DNA of 64,000 nucleotides. Origin: Membranipora membranacea. Taxonomy: Eukaryota; Bryozoa; Gymnolaemata; Cheilostomatida; Membraniporidae. Below, piece by piece: positions 5,166 through 61,483 of the stretch (positions are counted from its first letter, which is position 1; each line of letters begins with the position of its first letter). The DNA lies in NCBI GenBank assembly GCA_914767715.1, contig OU612065.1, positions 9,238,001 through 9,302,000 of the forward strand. The letters run 5' to 3'. Under the pieces are notes generated by a model that worked only from the letters and a program-made list of their open reading frames with translations, was not told the origin of the DNA and did not search any database. The translations under genes were made by a program, and so were the position numbers.

Positions 5166-8100
5166 GTAAGCAAAAGTATTACTGGTAATACCAAGTCATG
5201 ATACCAGTATACAAGAGGCTGCCATTGCTGGTCAGGTGAATGTTGGAGTTTGTTAATTTCCTAAGTGAAACTGAGGAAAACAAACCTCTCATAGCACACA
5301 TCTCAGCAAACAGTTACCAATCATGTCACTAAATTTTCCAATTAAAACTTATATCAAAACTTTATCTCTTGGAGACCTCCAACCTAGCCAATGTCTTGGC
5401 TCATAGCCATCACATTAGCTACCTCCAACCCTTATAAATACAAATATACTGCGATCTTTATTATTAATATATTATACATAAGAGACGTATACTTGGTAGT
5501 TTTGGATCATTGGGTCATGTCCAAAGAAGATGGACTAGTGTCTTTATCATCACACAATATATCTGACTCATACTATCTTGCAAACACTTGACTAGAAATA
5601 CGACATTATCGTGAACACAGAATTTTTTAACGTAAAAATGTAGCTTGGTTGTACCCTGGTAGGCATTCCGTAACAGTTCAGACCTTTCCATGTCCAACTC
5701 TTTGATATGATTTTAATCCTGTAAGTATGGATTGTATATAAAGCTGGAGAGCAGGTCATGCTGAGTCGGTGGGGCCTGGCAATCACTTGCAACAAAACAT
5801 CCTGCGCTGTGGTGACCGTATGATGAAAAGTCCCCATGAAAAGGTCACACACAGACATGCTGTAAATAGAGTTTGAAATTGCAGAAGGCGACGTGTAAAA
5901 TCTACGCTGTAAAACCATATAGTCTTGCATGTGTGGTTTCATATTTATCCACATGTTTTGACATCTGGGTTCAGCAGGCCATGCAAGCTGAGTCATATTT
6001 GGCTCTTCAGAGACAAAGGCTCTGGTTCTGATCTCTATCATATGAACCGATGTGATACACTTTGGCAAAATTGTATCTAAGTGAGGCACTATGGTATGAG
6101 TAGTTGAACCTTTAAATGGTATAGTGCAAATTCAATATTGGTAAAAATTGATCTGTTATCATAAAATTAACCCATCCTACATTGGCTTAGCTGTAAAACT
6201 CGAAATCTCTATTCTGAAAAAGATGTTTCTAACATTGTGCTCTCAAGGGCACTAAGCTTGTGAACATTCTGCTATTATCACTCTTGTTCATTTAGACCGG
6301 CGAGTGAACAAATTTACATTGATGGAACTAAATATAAAAGATTCGCTGCTGTGGGACATTTTTTTGTTGGAAGGAGGAAACATTTTCAAAACTTGAATAT
6401 ATCATAATATAGGCCCGTCTTTCTCAGCTCTTACTGTGAAATGAGTCTAGATAATAAGGTTCAATTCTAATGGAAGACTCTTTCTGTGAGACACATCAAG
6501 GAGTTAAAGACTCTAACTCCTTGGACACATGTGCTTCACTTCACCTGGTCTTAAAGTGCTTCCTATGATCGCAGACAAAAAGGATGTCTGTGACATAAGT
6601 TTAACCATAACACCCTGATGGAACTTCAAGATGTGTCTGACTTGTTGGGACTTATAGTGAAGCGGACTTATAGTGACGGGACTTATAGTGAAGGGACTTA
6701 TAGTGAAGGGACTTATAGTGAAGCGGTTGCTCTCATTTTGTAATATTTGCGTTATATAAAACAGTAACTATTGTAAAATATTTTTAATGGTTCAATTCAG
6801 TTGGTCACTATTGGATGGTCTGTAATGTTACACTAAATCAATGGTTCATGTAAACCAAACTTGAGTCAAATATAGATCCAGGTCTAGTTAGTATGTATAC
6901 AATATGTAGGTTCCTCTCCTCACATTCAACTATTGGTTGACAACATACTCTATTGGAACGGTATAATAAAACCTAAAAAAGCCCTTGATTAGCATTAACT
7001 ATCTGAAAACTTACAATTTCATCTGCATCCAATTAAGGAAGGGAAACTAAGAATAACTTAGCAGAGTTTCTAAGGCTGTCCATGGCAATGCAAATTACCA
7101 AACATTGAAACATGTAATTACCGCTGGCATAAAACTCGACTTGTCCTATGAGGACTTCCCATTCTTGATCTGTGAGTTCAAGTTTTCTGGTGTTCTGAAA
7201 GCAAAATGCTTCAGTGCTCTACATATGTTTGCCCTATGCTTCTGCACTTCCTCCCCCAATGATAGCCGTGTCATTGATAGTGTTATCCATAAGTGTTTAA
7301 GTGCTTCTGTGCCTCATCTCATCATCTCTTGATGCATCAAGGCATCGAGTCTCAAACTTACTGATAAGTTCCTACTCACTTAGGTCCATCAATGTCACTC
7401 ATAAAATACATCCTAGTAGGTTGTATTTCAAGCAGTCAAGAGGAATATAGCCTAAACCATACGCATTTACAGTGTATTATCACTAGTTCATAGACAATAC
7501 ACATGATCTACTGACTCAGGTCTAGATATTAGACAATGCTCTGATAATTATAACAACTTCTCGCCTGAATCTTTTTAGTCTTATACTTCCTTACTGACCA
7601 CACATGTATAGCAAGCTGGAAGCACTTTCTATTTGGTCTGTTTGTGATGTTTAATGAATTGGTGTTCTTGATGGTAATGTTGTTTTTTGTTTATCCAGAT
7701 ATTCCAGAAGATGAGGCACGGCTTTTCACAGAAAATCTTGACAAATGGAATGATATGTCAGAAGATGAGGTAAGGATTTTTTCCAAATAATTGTTTTGAA
7801 TTCCTCAACCGTAGCAAGGCCTAATATTTATATACAGGAACATCTGCTCGTAGAGCAAAAATAGATAAATATAGGCCATCCAAGTGTAGAACAACCAAAA
7901 GACAAATACCTTTTTTGAATTTTATATGCGATTTTTTAACTAATGCAGCTCAGACTCGTTTTATTTTTCCATGTATGTGCTGTACATTCGATGCTATCAA
8001 CCTGTCACATGATGGATATTAGAATTTAGGCAATAAACAAACTTCAAACTTCAAACTCACCAGACCCCCATTATATGCACCTTAGCATGTCAAAGTCCAG

Positions 8101-26100: not shown

Positions 26101-29100
26101 GATTGTAGTATCTAGATCCGTTACCAACATCTCAAAAAGGTGAATTTGATTTAATGACATAAATTTTAACTATAACTATTCTAGGGTCGGCTGAGCAAAA
26201 TGCGAAACATGGTGCTGATGACAAAGTTCACGCGAAGATGAATGCCATGCGAGACCGAATGAAGACAAGGGAAAAGAACAAGCCTGAAATATTTGATTTG
26301 GTCAGGTAAGTATCGTCAAACATGATTGCGTACATTGTCCCTGGAATTGACTTATGCAGTCAAAGATTAGATCAGCAAATACAATAACTCATAACATGAA
26401 CTAAGGAGTTATGCAAGACATTATTATGATATTTTTTTGATTTGTGAATGTGTGAATTGCCACTCTCTGACTTCATTGCAGCTCCTTGCTTGCATTAGTA
26501 TTGAGTGGTGGTTCTAGCGCTCAGCAAACCATTACCTCTATAATTATGCCTCTTTGTGTTCCAGAAACGTATTCAAAGTTGAAACAAATGTTCATGGGTC
26601 CGCCATGGAGCAAGTAAAACAAAGTGTACTGGAGGGTACATCCAACTGGTCTGCCAAACTTGCCATCACAGGTAATTCGCTGCTTAACAAATACCCATTA
26701 AGTTCTCAGATTGAGTTTGAACATGTCACCGAGGCTTTACATCCCAAATTTCGGTTGGGTAGCTACTCTAGATGCCTTAACACAACCTAACAGCGGTCTG
26801 TTTCCTATGGTTGCTCTTCAAAGTAAGGAGATGTATGGATCACAATATGTCTTAGTTGTAGAGCATGACCTTAACAAATATGTATGGTTATTACCCGGTC
26901 AGAGTAGAATTAACTGTGTAGTGCTTTGATGCTGGATGTATAGAAATGTATATCGATGACAATTTGGAAGAAACAGGTAGTCATGTGGTCTGTAAATCCC
27001 TATAGACATCGCTTATAGTACACGAAAAAAATTAGCTGAATAGCTACTTGAATATTTATTTAATGAATAATGCTGATTATAAACAGTCCGACAAGCATGG
27101 ATTCCCTCAAGAAAACGCAGCCGAATCAGTGAGTATGGTAAATGCTCCCTGTAGGGTTTAAGGTTTGTGTTCTTCTGATTAATGATTAAACTGTTTATGT
27201 GTCATCTCCTAAGATGATATATTGGATGACAAAAACAGTTGGAGGTGTAGATAGTTGGAACTGAAGCTCATATCTTACCCGAAAAGTGATTGCAGAATGT
27301 AGCATGCAAGGGTCATTAGATACTCACAACTCATTTCTACCATAGCCCTTGAACTTTTCCATCCCGATTATCAAGAGAGCACACATGCGTTGAAATTTCG
27401 GTTGAACTGAATTGTGTGAATGTGCGATAGAAAAATATTGTTAGTCTTCTTTTTTGATAACTCACTGCAATGGTCGGAGCTGTTCTATGAAAGCAAAATG
27501 TTTCCGGCAACTGTCAATTGACTGTCAATCTATGCACCTTGACCAAAGTGGGGAAACCACAATCGAACTGAAATGTTGAGACTGGGAATCCACACTCCAG
27601 TACTCAGTATCTCATTAATAATCTCACTGTTTGTATGAACGTTCATATCACCCTCTCCCATCCAGAATTACTGATCACTGTATGTTGAAAATTATGTTTT
27701 TGTCAATAATAATATTTTTGCACTATATTGGCTTCTGGTTGCACTCAAACTATGTGAAGATCAGATTTTGTTAGTCAGGGAAGATTTTCAGTGTTTCTGG
27801 TATTGCCAAATCAAGGGGATGCTTTGTTCAAAAAGTTAGAAGTTCTTACTTCCAATAATCACCCTCACACTCAAGGTTAAGATGTCACACACCGAGCAGT
27901 CATCAAGTTATTGTTTAATCCATAGCTAGTAACATCTGGTGTGGATTTCTTGCCCGACCGTTTATTGATTGTCGCAAAGCTTTGATGTTAAAGGTGTGCT
28001 GGGTTTCTGATTTCCAGTGAAAAGTGCTCAGGGGCTCATTGGCAAGGATAAAACAGGAACCAGCGACCCTTATGTCACAGTGCAAGTTGGACGCACAAAG
28101 AAGCGGACAAAGACTGTGCCTAAAGAGCTCAATCCAACATGGGAGGAGAAATTTTTCTTGTAAGTAGGCTATTTGTAATATTATATAGTCTCACCTAAAA
28201 GAAAATATTTTAGAAACCTGGAAATGTGTGAAAATATCGGGCTGGGCATAGTCAAGCTAACAGTCTTAGCACACAAGCAGAATGTTTGACCCGAATCTAG
28301 AGGATTTTCTCTAGCTCAGTCTCTGTAGTTTCGTTAAAATTGATTCGTCGTTGGTTGGTTGTGGAATGCTCCTTTCAGTGACACATCCACATAGTTTTTG
28401 TGAAAATCAGCATGGATCCTCCGTAGTTCATGAGTAACAATTAACTGATATGGTTTCCCTTTTTTCTTTCTGCGCTCAGCTGGTTTACAGTGTCTTTCTG
28501 ATTTAGAGTATACATTAAGTGACACATTTCTTTTTTTTCAGTGAGTGCCACAATTCATCAGACAGAATAAAAGTCAGAGTTTGGTAAGTACTGTTGTTCC
28601 AATGCTAGGTGAAGTTTATACACTAGTTTCTCTGTCACCAATATACACTGACCTATTCATAGACCTACAGTAAACCCAGTTAACAACAGTTAAGGCAGTC
28701 CCTCTACATCACATACATATAGATTTGGCAGCTTTTTTGATCAATGATTGTGGACCATGGTCAGCATCTTTGTAGTTAGTTAGTAGTTAGTAGCTTTTGA
28801 TTACTTGACTAAAACATATAATGATGTGAATTGTGAACAGTTTTATGTATATTACCGTTGCATTTGTTCTTGGATTAACAAGCTCTCTGCTACAGGGATG
28901 AGGATGATGATTTGAAATCAAAACTGCGTAAAAATTTTACACCAGAATCTGATGACTTTCTGGGTCAGACTATCATCGAAGTCAGGACCCTGTCTGGTGA
29001 GATGGATGTATGGTATAATCTAGGTATGTTCTGAACCATAAAATGTGTAACCAGTCATCTACCCTGAACTTTGATAATGATGGGGACATGAAGCAGTGTA

Positions 29101-32100
29101 TGCCACCATATACCTGTGGTGTCATATACAACCATCATGTTCCCTGATCTATTTTGGCTTCAGGAAGATGGACTGAGCACTGTTGTATGTGCATGTACTG
29201 ATGCCTAATATTACATTGTTCTCATATACAGGGATGAAGACAATGATCTCCAATCAAAGCTACGTTCGACTTTCACCTCACATGAGAGTGACGACTTCTT
29301 AGGTCAAACGATCATTGAAGTTCGAACTCTCAACGGTGAAATGGATGTGTGGTATAATCTAGGTATACTCAACGTGTACTGCCTTTGTTGTATTTAAAAG
29401 TTTAGCTAAAACCAAATAGACATGTGTTCAATAACCAAGGAACCCTCAAGGGGACCTCGCTTGATCAATTCATGATTTCTCTAACCACAGCTCCGTTGGG
29501 GTGATCAGATCATGAATTAAGCTATTAAAATGGTTCCCTTCCTATAGCTGCTTTATCCCCTCCCCTCGATACTATGATGAATTTGGCATTTGGTGATTTA
29601 TGCATTTTCCTAGAAAAACCCTTTAACCCGAACTGTGATGTGCTTGTAATTTGGACTAGCAGTCTTGCCACCCTATTGGTGATCAAAATGTGGCATGATG
29701 ACCACCCTACGATTATGTTTGGTAATTGTACTAGTGCATGAACTGGATTTATGATCACCGTAACTGAATACGAGCATGTGTCATCATCAAATGAAACAAC
29801 GAATCTATTAACACGATCGAATGCCAGTCCTATCACAACCACAGAGGTTTTGAGCCAGTGTTACGGTGTGCTAACAGCATCTTCTGTTTCGTTAATTACA
29901 GTTATTCATTCACTCAGTTGTCTCGTGGTTATTGACCAATCCTGAGTTTGACTTTGGTTAATCTAATTGCTCTGGTGCTGCTTTTACTGCTTCCTCAACA
30001 TCTCATACCATATGAGAGGTGATTGGCGACTCTCTGTCAGCATGGAGATGCTCAGATGTTTGGAATTGGAATATTGCTTAGATTTGTTCATAGAATGTGA
30101 GATGCGGAGTGGATAATTCTGTAGAAAGTGAACCTAATTATTCAACAAGTGTTTGTTTGCTGTTATTAGAGGTGTATCCTAGGTCCTCTTGCTTGTTTGA
30201 ACGCTTGGTAGCAGCATTTACTTCTCCACCATCAATACTTTTCATTATAGAGAAGAGGACAGACAGGTCAGCTGTTTCAGGTGCTATAAGGTTACACATC
30301 AGTGTTGAAATAAAAGGAGAAGAGAAGGTCGCTCCTTATCACGTTCAGTACACAGCCTTGCACGAGGTAGGAAGAATGTACAAACATATCTGGTCATGGC
30401 AGTTGTTCAACAGACTTGACAATCAAACCGAAAATTATGAATTTGTGATCAGCCTTTAAAGACTATATCTACCACATCACAGTCTATCTTAGAGTACTGC
30501 ACACATGCGATTATTTACAGCTTCGCGAGGGAAAACTGTTTGTTTAGTGGTCTAAGTTCCGCCCCTTTTATAGTAAGCGGCTTATAACTACACGCTACAA
30601 CGCTTCTCGCAGCAGACTATGGACAATCTTTGCCCAGCGAGAGAATAGTCTCATTGGTTAATAGACAGTTTTCTGAGCTCTTATTTATGCCTCATTTCGG
30701 AGTTGTCATCTCTCCAGTTTGGTACTTTTAACCCACGCCGTATAGGATTAAACCTGCTGAAAGAGGGTTATCTTGAAAACCACTTATGTTAGGGTAAAAA
30801 TGAGTTTTGATTCAGAGTCTGCACCATTGAAAACCTTGTGAGAAAGGGTTTCCAAATCATTGGAGGCTTGAATGTTGATGTATTTTATTTTTAGTGATGA
30901 AACTCATGAAAAATTCTGCCAAATTGTCCGCAAAATAGGCAGAAAATGCTATAATTGACAATCCAAATACTAAAACTATTTTCCAAACTATTAACTGCTG
31001 CAGATTCTGAATCAAAAATAATTTTTATCCTGCTATAAACGGTTATCAAGATAACCCTCTTTTCAGCACGTTTTTCCTATGCAGCGTGGGTTAAAAGTAC
31101 CAAACTGGAGAGAGGACAACTCCGAATTGAGTCCTAAATAAGAGCTCAGAAAACTGTCTATTAACAGTTACCAGTTGTATTTTTCATGACGTTTATGACG
31201 GGTATCATTAAAAGGCTTTGTTTATGGAATATCATTGGCTGATAGCTAACCTTATGATTATATCGCAGCTTGTAAACACGCTTTGTGTCTGCAGTGAAGA
31301 ATGAGGAGATAATAAGCAAAGCTAGAATTTCAAGCTCTATTTTATTTTTACTAGCTCAGGTTTTCTAGCTGGTGTGTGGACCGCTTTATACAATAACTTT
31401 CATTGTGCCAAGCTACAAATAGACATTAATAGTATAACCTTCTGCACACTCAGTTGAAAGAATATCAGCCAATGGTATAGCTGCCGGAACTGTTAGCCAT
31501 AGTCATCTGAGGATTATCATTTTTATTTTATGTTCTTTTCAGAACATCTTCCATTACCTATGTGAATCATCTGGAGACGAAGTAAAGTTACCGGACGCCA
31601 AAGGGGTGAGATTTTAATCAATCACAGTTTAAGAATACACATTATTATTTTATGGCTTGGTGAGCTTTTTTTCAGCTGTGTTTAGGTTGCCCTTCTCATT
31701 ATCCTCCTACATTTACAGTGTGATCACAGGTCCAATACATCACATCCACTATCCTTTATTGTTCTAGTAAGCCCATTAATCCATACCACGCCGCCAAAGC
31801 CAACTTTTACATTCAATTTAGTTTGTAACAGTAATGCTAAACTATTTTTCGTTGCTGAATCAGAGTTCACAATCTCACTCAAAAGCCTTGAATTGAAGTG
31901 TTATTTTGTTTGCTACTATGATTTAATGCGGTAGTACCATTATAATTTGTTTTCTCTTGTTATAAGCTCTTTTGATTATTTTCACCACAACATAGGCGCT
32001 GATTTGTCCGTGGGTAGGTATTGCACTCTGAGAGCTGTTTAGTGTTGTGCTTTATGTATTTCTACTGTAGATCCTTTTAACATTTGAAATCTGTAAAAAA

Positions 32101-48984: not shown

Positions 48985-53459
<4,475 letters not shown>

Positions 53460-55907: not shown

Positions 55908-58900
55908 TTAAAACAGAGCAAGCATAGTGGCTAGGATGAGACCAGCAGTGAACTTTAGCTGCAGAGCAGAGTTGGTCTGCACAGGGCGTTCGCTCCAATC
56001 TGTCACCTCACAGGCATCCATATTCTTGTATGAGATGCAGTACTTAATGTCTGCTTCCTTTGGATAATAGTTCATGAGTCCAAAGCACATCTCATCCTAC
56101 ATGAGAAACAAAGTCAAAGTTTGAATAAAACTTGATCTAATGCAAAAGACTGGAAGAGGAAGAATGGTGTTTGGTTTCCCCTGAAAATGAATGAGAACCT
56201 GCTGTAAGTAGTATTTTCCTCAAGGACCAGATTTTCTTTACTACTTGACTTACATTTGTTGCCAGTCCGGTGTATGTGATCTGACTCCTGCTCATAGTGT
56301 TGTAGTTACAGAGTGTCTCAATTCTATCACCAGCTTTGAGCTCAAGTGGAGGGTCAAACCTGACAGAAAATTATTTTGATATAGATTAGGCTACTGGTAG
56401 TAAATCGACAATGCATGAGTAGAAAACTTACTATACAGCTGACATGAAGTCCAGAGAACATATCATGACTGACTGACATGACTGACTGATTCATTCGGAG
56501 TTTGTAATGCTAGTTATTGTTCAAAATGACTGACCTGTGAAACACAGGTGTATCATAGCTATATGTCTCTTCATCCGCCCAGGTTTCAACAAGGTTACCA
56601 TCTCTCCACTGTTTTATACTTCCGTGTGATCCTGTAGGTGAAAAATTTAATGCTGGTATTGGTAATTTAACTTTGATTTAATTGATTTTTTATTGCATCC
56701 AGTATCATTACAGATAGAATCGAACGCTCACACGCTCGCATAAAAAAATTATTGCTATTAGCAGTACTGCAGCGACTGTAATCTCAGAACTAGTAGCCCT
56801 TTTCTTACCCAGGTAATGCATGTGCAGATATGCGCTAGTGATGAATACAGACTGGTCTCCCATCTTCTTCTTAGTACAAGACTCTGTGCATTCACCAGCC
56901 ACAGTCCATGATACTCTGCCAGGCGGTAACTCCAGGTGAGACTGACCAGTCAGGAAGATTCCCAAACTCTGCTCCCTAATATGAGGTGTAAGGTAAATGG
57001 TTGCTCCAGACTCATCACTTGAAATGAAATATAATATTATACCATAATAACATAATGTCATGATACTGCATGGAAAGACTAATTGAGTAACAGCAGGGAG
57101 GGTAACAATGAGCACATCATACAGTTCAGCTTTCAACCGGGAGTTGCCTTCTGATTTAGCCGTGGAGGGACAACTATGCAACACATACAGATCAAGCGTG
57201 ACCTGTTATTCATTCTGATTTACATACATACATACATACAAGTTCAACAGCGGCATCAAAACATTTTACTTACTAGTAGTTAACTTCATTGGTTGGATTA
57301 TTCCAGTGGTGTTCCATCAGTATCTTCTCGTAGTGGCCTTTACCAACAAGAATACCATGGTCCTCATGTTGGCATTCACCGTTTGAGCCTAGAGTCCATA
57401 CACCTATTATATCACATTCTCCTGTGTTCATTCCGCACTCTTTTGGTGAATCAAACTGATCTATGGTGGGTAAAAATTTTGAATAAATAAACAAATCAAA
57501 TGTAGAAAAACACCTCAACAACATTGTTTTTAGGGTGCTTTCATCAGGGTGAGTCATCGGTGAGGCTTAGGAGTTTTGATTATTTAAAGATATTATTATT
57601 TTCTGCAAAATGTAAATTATAAATATAATTAATTACATTGAATTTCAGTGGTCCATCATTTTCTTAAATCACAGGTTGTATTTTGGGGGGGGGGGGGTTG
57701 CTTTTATGTAAGCTATCATTGGAACCCACCAAAAATATGTGGAAAGCTTATACAAAAGCAAGACTGATGGGAAAATCTGACATAAAAATCTGCAGCTTGA
57801 CACCTGTCACCATTCATATGGACATAACAATTATATAATATACATACCAATGTCTACATCAGCAGGGCAGCCATATAAGAGAGTGTGATGCATGACATAT
57901 GCATTGTCAATAAGTGGTTTTGTAGCGAACATGTGATATTCTTTGTCATTTGGAATATCAAAGGTCTGGCACAAGTATGAGGTCTCTTGAGTTGGAACAA
58001 GGGTGCGATCAAACTTCATTTCAATCTCTATTGTGTCTAGAAAAAACAATGCATAGTTTTATTTGAAAGAAACACAATTCCTACCAATTGTTTGCATGCA
58101 ATTTGTCCAATGATGGGGGTTGTATGCTAAAAGTTTGGAGCGTTATCGTTCACACTTCTGTCACCAGAATATTTGTGAGTACTAATATCTAAATGCTCCT
58201 GGTAAGTGTTGTAATGATTGCATTCTTACCTGGGTCATCGATGCCTGCGCAGGTAAAATCAGCTCCCTCTGAGCAGTCAATGGTCCATCCATTCTTGTTG
58301 AGGCAGTCAGCTGAATCTGTTGGTTCACAGATTCCTGGATGAGATATATTGGCTGTTCTTTGAGGAATCTCTCCTGCAGGAAACAAATTATTTTTAATGA
58401 GAATCAAACTTGAACTGTACTTTTTGATTATTACTCCATACATCAACAGGTAACTAACTGACGTCAGTATACTGTAGCCAACCGATGATGTTGTAATGGG
58501 AAAACTATCCAACTTAATTTGCATGTTATAGTTTCTTACATGGTATCTGAGTACACAGTGTAGTCTAGCCTAGTCACAGTCAAATGTACGGTGAGAAACC
58601 CGACACAAGATTGTCAGTGTCGTTCAACATTGATCAGAAATCAGAGGATAAAAGTTTCCAAGCATGTGAGAAAGGTTGCAATAGGCTCAGTAATATAATT
58701 TCATATTACTTCAGACGACACAGGCAATTAATGACAGGTGAAGAAATGACAGAGATTATTTTCTCTACCACTGAGAGGATGACTGTAAAGTGAAATTTTA
58801 TACTCTGCATCCAATCACCTTTGCTCATCATTTGATAAAAATATACACTAGAACTCAAATATTACCCAAGATTACAGTTACGGTTGTAGCAGCAAAGCTT

Positions 58901-60346
58901 TATGATTTGCTATTAGAACACCAATACCATGTAAAGACCAAACATCCAGAAATAAGATTCTCACCAGCAGACCACTCGCAGTTAGGATCCCCAAGTTCTT
59001 GGCCATTAGTCAGTCCATCGTCATCAGAGTCAGCATTGCAGAGTTCAGAGTTCCAAGACTGTGAACAAATAGATATCAAATTTAAATCCAAAATTGTTAT
59101 AAGACACCTGGCGTGTGTATGAAGTGTATGACACAGGATCAATTGTGATAGTCAAAACTAAACAGAACTTTGTAGAATAAAATACTACACATCACCATTA
59201 GTAAACTAAATTTATTTACTATTGCTAACTTGTATATTTTCAAATCTCATATAATGACCTACTTTGTTTTCTCTCAAATGTTGCTTTACACCCAAACGTT
59301 TGCCTGATGTGGGCGGAATCCGGGTAATAAATTAAAAATGAGAGTGTTGTGTACAAATAAATCATGGAATTTTAATGTGGAATGTGGCTGAGAGTATAGG
59401 AATGGATCAAAGAAGCAATACAGAGCAGGTAAAACCATACAATCGTATGCAACGTCAAGCTTGCACCATTTTCGCCAGGCATCGACTAGACTTGCTCTGG
59501 ATTTTTGTTAAGTCATGACGTTTTATATTTATTGTTGGATATCAAGTTCAATACTAGTTCGTGTATTTATTTATTCAAGCAAATTCAATACCTGCTAACT
59601 TTCCCAGCTAATGCATGAGTGAAAACAAATAGAGTTTCATGGATTTTCTTATTCAAACAAGAAACCTTTTACAGGATTTTATGCTCAGTGAAGTCAATGA
59701 CTGAAGTGATGGGAGTTAGTTGGCGAAGGATTAGCTGTTCCCCCACAGAGTACACCCCAAGGACATGTGCACCAGTGTTTATACTATTATCATGATTTTA
59801 ATCTGTGTTACATGTTTGCATAACACTAGGCAACTGGCCAACTGCGGATGATGTCCAAAGGGACATTTTTTGCAAATTATGGACATGACATTCACATGCA
59901 CAAATATAGATCTGTAACCATGATTGCTTATAGATAATAATATGATTGATACCTGGTCAAAATGAGACAGTTTCGGTCCAGTTTTTTCCACAGAATTCTG
60001 TGGGAACTCCCTCTATATTTCTTTGCGGGTACTTAGCTCCCACTAGTTCCCACTCACTTCAAACCCTACCATTACTTATGACTATTGAATAGAGTACCGA
60101 TAATCCAAACATTGGTAGACGACGAAAGAGAAGACTTACCAGTCCCGCTGCCTTGAATGCAGTTCCAAATGGATTCCTATCTCCACCTCCTTGAGCGTTT
60201 TGATGGCCCACCCCTTGCCAGATAAAGTTTGGTTTGCAGGGATGAGGTATGTTGGCTCCATTTGGAATTTGGTTCTGATAACTCTTGAATCCAGCTACTC
60301 CACACACCAACAGGGCTGCTAGGATAATTCTGAAAAAGTGAGCCAT
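55908..60346 (-). CDS. Secreted/surface temptin-copper type II monooxygenase fusion (PHM/DBH-like)
   Basis: Nine minus-strand exons join in phase to 473 residues: 60140-60346, 58965-59058, 58230-58373, 57848-58036, 57274-57460, 56809-57017, 56535-56631, 56254-56359 and 55908-56096. Residues 1-19 are a signal peptide (MAHFFRIILAALLVCGVAG). Residues 20 to about 115 match temptin, the mollusc pheromone protein: FKSYQNQIPNGANIPHPCKP, GVGHQNAQGGGDRNPFG, and an EF-hand-like loop DSDDDGLTNGQE (79-90). From about 150 the protein is a two-domain copper monooxygenase of the PHM/DBH/MOXD type, with all expected ligands: His198-His199 (MHHTLLYGC), His263 (EHHWNNP), His339 and His341 (LHMHYLG) and Met414 (NDEMC). 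The C-terminus is hydrophobic with no tail after it (LKFTAGLILATMLALF), as in GPI-anchored proteins. The substrate cannot be read from sequence. Confidence 0.9.
57223..57240. repeat. tacatacatacataca microsatellite
   Basis: A short TACA run lies in an intron of the temptin-monooxygenase gene. A 13-base G run lies nearby at 57685-57697. Both are simple sequence. Confidence 0.85.
59059..60139. other. Intron 1 of the temptin-monooxygenase gene
   Basis: I see no exon, hairpin or named repeat in this 1.1 kb. Small ORFs lack support. Confidence 0.5.
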
Positions 60347-61483
60347 AACAAATTTGATGTTACATAATCGAATATTCTCCACTTCACTAGAACTGGTACC
60401 AAAAACCAACCACAAAGTTTTGCAGCTTTTAATTATAAAACAGTAAATGACCCAAACCATGATATATGTATATAATCCCCTAAACAGATACAAACTCATA
60501 CAAATGACTGCTTTGTTTAAATTTATGCCCAAAATATTTTTACCTTAGAGACATGTTTAGCAGCTGCATTTCTAAACGTAACAGCCTGTAAATGAAATTT
60601 GAAGCTAGGCTCGGGAGTGTTTTAGGACGTTCCATATGATGTCCAATAGAATCAGAGAAATGATTGTCAACATCACATGGTAATGGAAACTTCAATATGG
60701 TGTGATGTCTCGCCTGAAAACTTGAGTAATAGCATGATGCTGAGTGAGATGATTTATCATGATGAAATTTGAAAATAAATTTGATACTGGGCCAATATGA
60801 ATCATGTTATCATCTATACCAGCGCTTGTTTGTTCCTAGTCCTTACTTTTCTCACAGTACATAATATCCCCATAACCAAACTGAAGACCGTCAATGTATG
60901 CTGAACTGATATGAACATTTACTGTATGTTGCCCCTAATTTCACTTTTATCCTCAAAGGGGACCATTTTTGGCCATGCCTTCATTTGCTGGCATGGTTCC
61001 TTTGTAACTTGAGGAACAAGATCCTCTCTGCGCAATCCACTTTCCCGCCTATTTTCCCGTGTTGTTGTCATGTTTCCAATAAATTAAATCCCTAATAGTA
61101 TTTTCATTCCATGTATTTAGCCCACTGAAAATGCCTTAGGAAAACCAAATGAACAAGGATAAAATACATTGTACTTGTAGGCAGGGAGAATTCTATCCTC
61201 CCTGTTGTAGGGCATAAATAGCAACAAATAGTCTGTGGTTTGCAAGAGTTCAAGCAATACTGAAGATTTGTTAATGATTTTAATGGAGACATACCTCAGC
61301 ATTTTGAGATAGAATATCCTTCAAGCTGGACAAAAAAAAACCGCAGCCTTGTTATCGAGTTTGAAACTGAGATTGATCCTTTTATAACTCAGGTGTACTG
61401 CAGTATTGTATAACCTTAGAAGGATTGTGCTTTTGCTCTATAGGACAGCATATAATCACAGAGTAAGGATATAATTACAATGC
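60347..61483. other. Upstream region of the temptin-monooxygenase gene
   Basis: No coding exon is visible. The leader and promoter of the minus-strand gene should lie here. Overlapping minus-strand ORFs at 61104-61302 carry no recognisable domain. Confidence 0.45.

Follow-up and report, generated by a model that had tools for sequence, protein, structure and literature searches.

Two tandem exons for loop 3 of the C2B domain of unc-13 in the bryozoan Membranipora membranacea: a probable mutually exclusive pair

Introduction

Why should an unc-13 gene carry, side by side, two versions of the exon that encodes a single loop of its C2B domain? Munc13 proteins are essential for vesicle priming, and the question is raised by a stretch of 64,000 nucleotides (nt) of Membranipora membranacea DNA (contig OU612065.1, positions 9,238,001 to 9,302,000; here, the window), in which a preliminary description had picked out two neighbouring exons, 21a and 21b, as alternative versions of part of C2B. 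We put at roughly 0.7 the probability that the pair is a tandem duplication of the loop-3 exon of unc-13 whose copies are used as mutually exclusive alternatives. Splicing of 21a and 21b could tune the readiness of transmitter release.

The gene and its exon pair

The plus-strand gene is, judged by its predicted protein, unc-13/Munc13, and the exon pair lies inside its C2B part. A crude concatenated peptide of 706 residues matches rat Munc13-1 in the PDB from C1 to the start of C2C (E 3.1e-251), and this match, together with tblastn along the gene, gives the UNC13/Munc13 domain order C1, C2B, MUN, C2C. C2A runs from ~3.16 kb and C1 lies at 24.4 kb, followed by C2B, MUN and C2C to ~41.8 kb; exon borders outside C2B are approximate. 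In a protein tree with 30 relatives the window protein has a rather long branch and groups with molluscs, Lingula and annelids; the support, 88/90, is below the program's starred level. The features first needed here are as follows, in positions of the window.

3157 to 41815, plus strand: unc-13 gene, approximate coding span, from tblastn with Lingula and Mizuhopecten unc-13 proteins; both ends approximate
28018 to 28159, plus strand: exon 19, start of C2B with loop 1 and the equivalents of rat D705 and D711, from the PDB alignment
28542 to 28583, plus strand: exon 20, ending in the TG of a split Trp codon; common donor at 28583
28896 to 29023, plus strand: exon 21a, 128 nt, whose first base G completes the Trp
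29024 to 29231, plus strand: intervening intron, 208 nt
29232 to 29362, plus strand: exon 21b, 131 nt, whose first base G completes the Trp; weak donor TAG/GTATAC
30251 to 30366, plus strand: exon 22, the next exon common to both paths

Aligned to the rat Munc13-1 chains (PDB 7t7c, 5ue8, 6nyc), 21a and 21b both correspond to loop 3 of C2B, and the domain matches rat Munc13-1 with either exon in place (E 2.8e-76 with 21a, 3.1e-73 with 21b). The two exons are neighbouring and of near-equal length (128 versus 131 nt), have AG/GT borders and identical phases, and each end in CTA G ahead of the acceptor at 30251; their peptides, the split Trp included, are 43 and 44 residues long. The paths 20-21a-22 and 20-21b-22 both read open, double inclusion leads to a frameshift and a stop, and skipping of both copies to an immediate TGA. 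The preliminary description had placed the two exons 208 nt apart as alternative 43- and 44-residue versions of the same part of C2B, and its coordinates, borders, spacing and phases were all correct; its further claim, that the frame holds with either exon alone and breaks with both or neither, agrees with a direct reading of the four exon combinations, save for one exception by way of an internal donor that is weighed below. In the mutually exclusive use that we favour, each mRNA would carry 21a or 21b, and products of double inclusion or skipping would be removed by nonsense-mediated decay.

Age and constraint of the two copies

Counting the Trp, 37 of 43 aligned residues are identical between 21a and 21b, as are 91 of 126 aligned nucleotides. 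The 42 aligned codons comprise 15 that are identical, 21 that differ silently and 6 that change the residue, with one further codon inserted in 21b, which accounts for the extra residue that had been noted there. Of the 42 third positions 22 differ, compared with 13 among the 84 positions that are first or second in their codons (Fisher p = 3.6e-5). The synonymous proportion pS is 0.90, which is saturated, and the nonsynonymous distance dN is 0.12; 21b is therefore hardly a recent or neutral copy. These values bear out the earlier remark that silent differences are many and the copies long kept, and they support the view that both copies are old and held by selection at the level of the protein.

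Such duplication appears to be confined to this exon. Among 36 approximate exons only the 21a/21b pair showed a duplicate in the window (tblastx E about 1e-17), and a plus-strand tblastx search of the window found no second copy of the 34 others (E 0.083 or worse), the shortest of which are too small to score. Similarity between the introns flanking the copies is chance-like: of 200 shuffles, 11.5% equalled it on the upstream side and 33% on the downstream side.

What the two exons change

Loop numbering here is counted on from rat D705, so that loop 3 opens W756, D757, E758, D759. D705 and D711 are Ca2+ ligands of Munc13 C2B (PMC4927299), and D757 and D759 are positions equivalent to likely ligands of another C2 domain (PMC3888931). 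All four are present in the alignment to the rat chains, D757 and D759 in 21a and 21b alike; both predicted isoforms thus keep the published Ca2+ ligand positions of loops 1 and 3.

For comparison, 284 retrieved proteins yielded 293 loop instances, of which 292 are of standard length and were used. The protein lists are the best 120 of 922, 3553 and 2949 matches and their 90% identity clusters hide isoforms, so the set is a biased one. The loop set aside, that of P0074, has one extra residue like 21b and a charge of +3 by hand count, in a C2B of only 51% identity.

Residue 760, which adjoins the ligand positions D757 and D759, is Asp in 21a (DEDDD) and Asn in 21b (DEDND). The preliminary description had taken this Asn for a lost third Asp and hence a weakened Ca2+ site. 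Asn is in fact the usual residue, found in 268 of the 292 loops, and Asp the less common one (24/292); with D757 and D759 kept, the argument from a lost third Asp therefore fails, and we reject a lost ligand at this position.

The two loops differ in charge. Over residues 762-772 (His uncounted) the net charge is +4 to +6 in the 292 loops, +4 in 21a and +2 in 21b, making 21b the least basic loop of the compared set, and in this respect the loss of basic residues described earlier is real. At positions 768, 769 and 772 the residues are Lys, Asn and Pro in 21a versus Ser, Thr and Ser in 21b. At position 769 all but two of the loops have a basic residue, Lys or Arg (290 of 292); Thr, as in 21b, is seen also in Cichlidogyrus P0032 and in Mya P0129, there in the downstream copy. 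A basic residue at R769 is a usual, non-defining feature of UNC13, and the gene stays unc-13 without it.

What of the proposal that splicing switches between a strong and a weak lipid-binding form? The lower charge of 21b stands in its favour. Neither isoform, however, has a basic residue at 769, and 21a is itself at the low end of the charge range, so the contrast is not simply one of a normal and a weak form.

Published work on this loop indicates what might follow. In mouse Munc13-1, the loop-3 mutation R769E strongly impaired Ca2+-independent liposome binding and bridging, as well as vesicle priming, and simulations in the same study place an amphipathic loop helix at the membrane with and without Ca2+ and in both orientations (PMC8648301). 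Since 21b keeps the Asp ligands and loses basic residues, lower Ca2+-independent lipid binding should be expected of its loop, by analogy. In the mechanism that we favour, 21a and 21b would differ in this amphipathic basic helix, which would touch the lipid head groups. The 21a form (+4) would be the more basic, default-like one; the 21b form (+2, one residue longer) would bind phosphatidylserine (PS) and phosphatidylinositol 4,5-bisphosphate (PIP2) more weakly in the Ca2+-independent mode. One form would then give stronger basal priming and the other lean more on Ca2+ and diacylglycerol, and the choice of form would set release probability and facilitation per cell type.

The same residues admit another reading, in which 21b differs from 21a mainly in its partners or regulation, for example through phosphorylation of extra Ser/Thr residues, and not in lipid binding. 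The Ser, Thr and Ser of 21b at 768, 769 and 772, against Lys, Asn and Pro in 21a, are what it would call for. All three residues fall within or next to the helix that, in the published account of Munc13-1, faces the membrane (PMC8648301), and we consider this reading unlikely.

Tandem copies in relatives

Is the arrangement peculiar to this bryozoan? The preliminary description had suggested looking for the duplicate in related genomes, and among the retrieved proteins the gene models of five further species do hold tandem copies. Two tandem loop-3 copies lie within one gene model in 7 of the 284 retrieved proteins: Macrostomum (P0123, P0125, P0127), Didymodactylos (P0124), Dimorphilus (P0126), Mytilus coruscus (P0128) and Mya (P0129), species that we take to be spiralians. 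In four of the five species the upstream copy is near-standard and only the downstream one departs. Didymodactylos is the exception: both its copies depart from the standard, as they do in the window gene, where the downstream 21b does so more in charge.

Ser at 768, as in 21b, occurs in 10 of 292 loops. Four belong to tandem models (the downstream copies of the three Macrostomum models and of Dimorphilus), and the others are single loops, from Echinococcus, Mesocestoides, Paragonimus, Lamellibrachia, the JGI fragment P0071 and Megaselia P0206. Echinococcus, Mesocestoides and Paragonimus proteins carry 21b-like residues (Ser 768, Ser/Ala 772) in frame with normal neighbours. Megaselia abdita has two different unc-13 proteins, P0143 with a standard loop and P0206 with a Ser-768 loop like that of 21b; because the fly has the second, standard protein, we take P0206 to be a probable paralogue showing convergence.

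Not every repeated match is an exon duplication. The double matches in Bulinus P0121 lie ~1000 residues apart, and there two near-whole copies are fused in one model; those in Acipenser P0122, judged by spacing alone, lie ~900 residues apart, and both were rejected. Lemur P0130 has a second, partial copy inside a jumbled model.

The tandem models themselves join their copies awkwardly. In the Mya model 68 residues separate the copies, as if an intron had been read, and in the Dimorphilus model exon 20 is missing and GEMDVW is joined to DED, as also in the Mytilus coruscus model. The models seem to bridge exons by forced junctions, which is how a predictor would be expected to behave with exons not normally joinable in frame.

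Whether these pairs go back to one duplication or several bears on how old the switch might be. A tree of 27 short exon peptides has too few columns to choose between one origin and several: a single clade of the eight b forms has p-AU (approximately unbiased test) 0.36, and 21a and 21b as sisters 0.31. Independent duplications in this lineage and in others, with only the tendency recurring, would fit the sister arrangement, which is not rejected, and the downstream copies of Mytilus, Mya and Didymodactylos, which are without Ser-768. The single b clade is likewise not rejected, however; the less standard copy is the downstream one in the models of all the tandem species but Didymodactylos; Ser 768 is found in 21b, in the b copies of Macrostomum and Dimorphilus, and in the single loops of the cestodes and of Paragonimus; and synonymous saturation fits a great age. 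We would rate recurrent duplication as quite possible, at somewhat short of an even chance.

How exclusion might be enforced

A pair of exons can be kept apart by crowding of splice signals, which in the OGDH type of case means less than about 50 nt between donor and branch point (PMC7969005). In the intron between 21a and 21b, branch-like CTGAT and CTAAT, judged by motif alone, lie at 29198 and 29205, ~178-185 nt from the 21a donor, and exclusivity would probably not come from crowding of donor and branch point. Three further features of this region enter the discussion.

29013 to 29018, plus strand: internal donor-like GTATAA in exon 21a (ATG/GTATAA at 29012/29013); score 3.0, the lowest scored
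29082 to 29144, plus strand: hairpin core in the intervening intron, arms 29082-29091 and 29135-29144, present in the minimum free energy structure of 28896-29362
29190 to 29195, plus strand: TGCATG, a short way before the branch-like sites of 21b; the plus strand of the window has 30 such hexamers, among them one at 29735

The 21b donor has a simple consensus score of 3.5 versus 4.0-7.2 for 24 other placed donors, whose scores are biased upward because the same score was used to place them. The 208-nt intron folds at -67.7 kcal/mol (z -4.67; 0 of 200 shuffles as good), and in a separate control it has z -3.88, the lowest of 18 introns shorter than 600 nt, with 2 of 222 same-length windows lower; such intron folds are uncommon, yet not unique, in the window. 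Base pairing between the splice sites at the two ends of this intron (21a donor, 21b acceptor) was tried and rejected: its probability is 0.8-0.97 for the intron alone and 0 once the flanks are added. Pairing between introns was no better than 60 simple shuffles for two of three pairs, and was equalled by 5% for the third. Rfam gave no match at gathering score over the whole window and none up to E 1 in 28500-30400. The TGCATG at 29190, which we take to be an Rbfox-like motif, may be a chance occurrence. In our view exclusivity would be imposed by ordinary splicing regulators, aided by the weak 21b donor and perhaps also by the intron hairpin.

The weak donor lends itself to a different account, that 21b is a decoy or poison exon whose inclusion, with 21a or alone at low efficiency, lowers unc-13 mRNA through nonsense-mediated decay and whose protein is unimportant. 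The frameshift and stop on joint inclusion would serve that end, as would a 208-nt intron that looks spliceable. Saturated synonymous sites, only 6 residue changes in 42 codons and a codon inserted in frame point instead to selection on the protein, and flatworm proteins carry 21b-like versions in frame; we hold the decoy account to be quite improbable.

Several points nevertheless weigh against mutually exclusive use of the pair. The use of 21b is a prediction from the genomic sequence of this species; the five two-copy species are represented by gene models, some of them apparently forced (the intron in Mya, exon 20 in Dimorphilus); and nearly all loops of the biased set retrieved have the standard residues at 768 and 772. 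The 208-nt intron is long enough for splicing, and the internal donor at 29012/29013 would permit both exons to be joined in frame. On the side of function, R769E alone left Ca2+-dependent liposome fusion unimpaired and K720E, another loss of charge in C2B, raised evoked release (both PMC8648301), and neutralising a worm C2B polybasic motif, on another strand, hurt release in reduced constructs and not in full UNC-13L (PMC11991699), as the consulted parts of these reports have it. By these precedents, charge alone may be a poor predictor of function, and the direction of any effect on release in the animal, which we infer from the loop, could be the opposite one, as with K720E.

The internal donor raises a last alternative, in which both exons enter one protein by way of 29012 and lengthen loop 3 by ~40 residues. 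A donor that restores the frame does exist there, and the Dimorphilus (P0126) and Mytilus coruscus (P0128) models show the same-looking junction, GEMDVW/DED. Such a protein would have a second Ca2+ loop and a repeated strand forced into a C2 fold. The Dimorphilus and Mytilus models also drop or cut the preceding exon, as forced predictions would, and we take their junction to be an annotation artefact; the Macrostomum, Mya and Didymodactylos models bridge the copies otherwise, Mya apparently through the intron. At 3.0 the internal donor scores lower than that of 21b and than all 24 placed ones, and we regard joint inclusion as very improbable.

We thus return to mutually exclusive use of 21a and 21b as the favoured reading. 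Its most ambitious form would make the pair an ancient spiralian switch in C2B, between a lipid-gripping priming form and one with a weakly charged Ca2+-binding loop and less Ca2+-independent tethering, setting release probability cell by cell, with a structured intron helping exclusion. We advance that larger picture tentatively and think it, as a whole, doubtful.

Other features of the window

Within unc-13, the intron after exon 22 holds an inverted repeat with arms at 30657-30747 and 31075-31165 (91 nt, 93% complementary) and inner arms at 30760-30838 and 30984-31062; by its sequence it looks like a MITE-type element. A tandem array of a 15-nt unit, 5.1 copies, occupies window positions 6647-6723.

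49275 to 50667, plus strand: open frames that, we presume, resemble COP9 signalosome subunit 2; three pieces tried gave no Pfam match above cut-off
57834 to 58058, minus strand: piece of a copper type II ascorbate-dependent monooxygenase (Pfam Cu2_monooxygen, E 1.7e-10); the two pieces adjoining it gave no Pfam match
60062 to 60544, minus strand: open frame of a temptin-like gene (Pfam Temptin_C, E 6.7e-16, 53-residue piece); temptin is a mollusc pheromone protein

Comparison with known systems

Among the papers listed by a literature search there was no report of such an exon pair in unc-13/Munc13, which is weak evidence of absence; in the portions of the splicing papers that were checked, unc-13 is named only in references or only in a list of genes with differential splicing. 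C2 domains altered by mutually exclusive exons are already known elsewhere, and we file unc-13 as a new gene for them. The loop concerned matters in the mouse, where a single substitution in loop 3 of the Munc13 C2B is enough to impair priming by neurons (PMC8648301). With its Ca2+ ligands retained and mainly the basic helix altered, the present pair would pull the two functions apart naturally, with no need of engineered mutants. The gene models with tandem copies come from molluscs (two species), an annelid, a flatworm and a rotifer, and other invertebrates may possibly tune their synapses likewise.

The closest parallels are in invertebrate Syt1, Syt34 and Esyt2, where mutually exclusive exons altering C2 domains are said to have arisen several times (PMC2823689). 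There too, the proteins act at synapses or in trafficking, and the choice of exon changes one part of a C2 domain; unc-13 lies outside the coverage of that study as its title and abstract define it, and here it is loop 3 with the basic helix of a Munc13 C2B that would be exchanged. Exons 4a and 4b of OGDH are likewise an ancient exon duplication, one that yields Ca2+-sensitive and Ca2+-insensitive forms (PMC7969005). In human OGDH, as described there, it is the closeness of branch point to donor, 25-41 nt, that enforces the choice, whereas the distance here is ~178-185 nt, and the Ca2+ ligands here are kept in both forms.

The C2B domain itself shares with Munc13-1/UNC-13 C2B (PDB 7t7c, 5ue8, 6nyc) the residues D705, D711, D757 and D759 and the loop architecture; unlike Munc13-1, it has no basic residue at R769 in either isoform, and its 21b loop is one residue longer. 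Finally, the long and short UNC-13 of the worm and Unc13A and Unc13B of the fly also obtain several release modes from one gene (PMC11991699). Those isoforms, in the account consulted, vary in the N-terminal region, while in Membranipora the variation would lie inside C2B.

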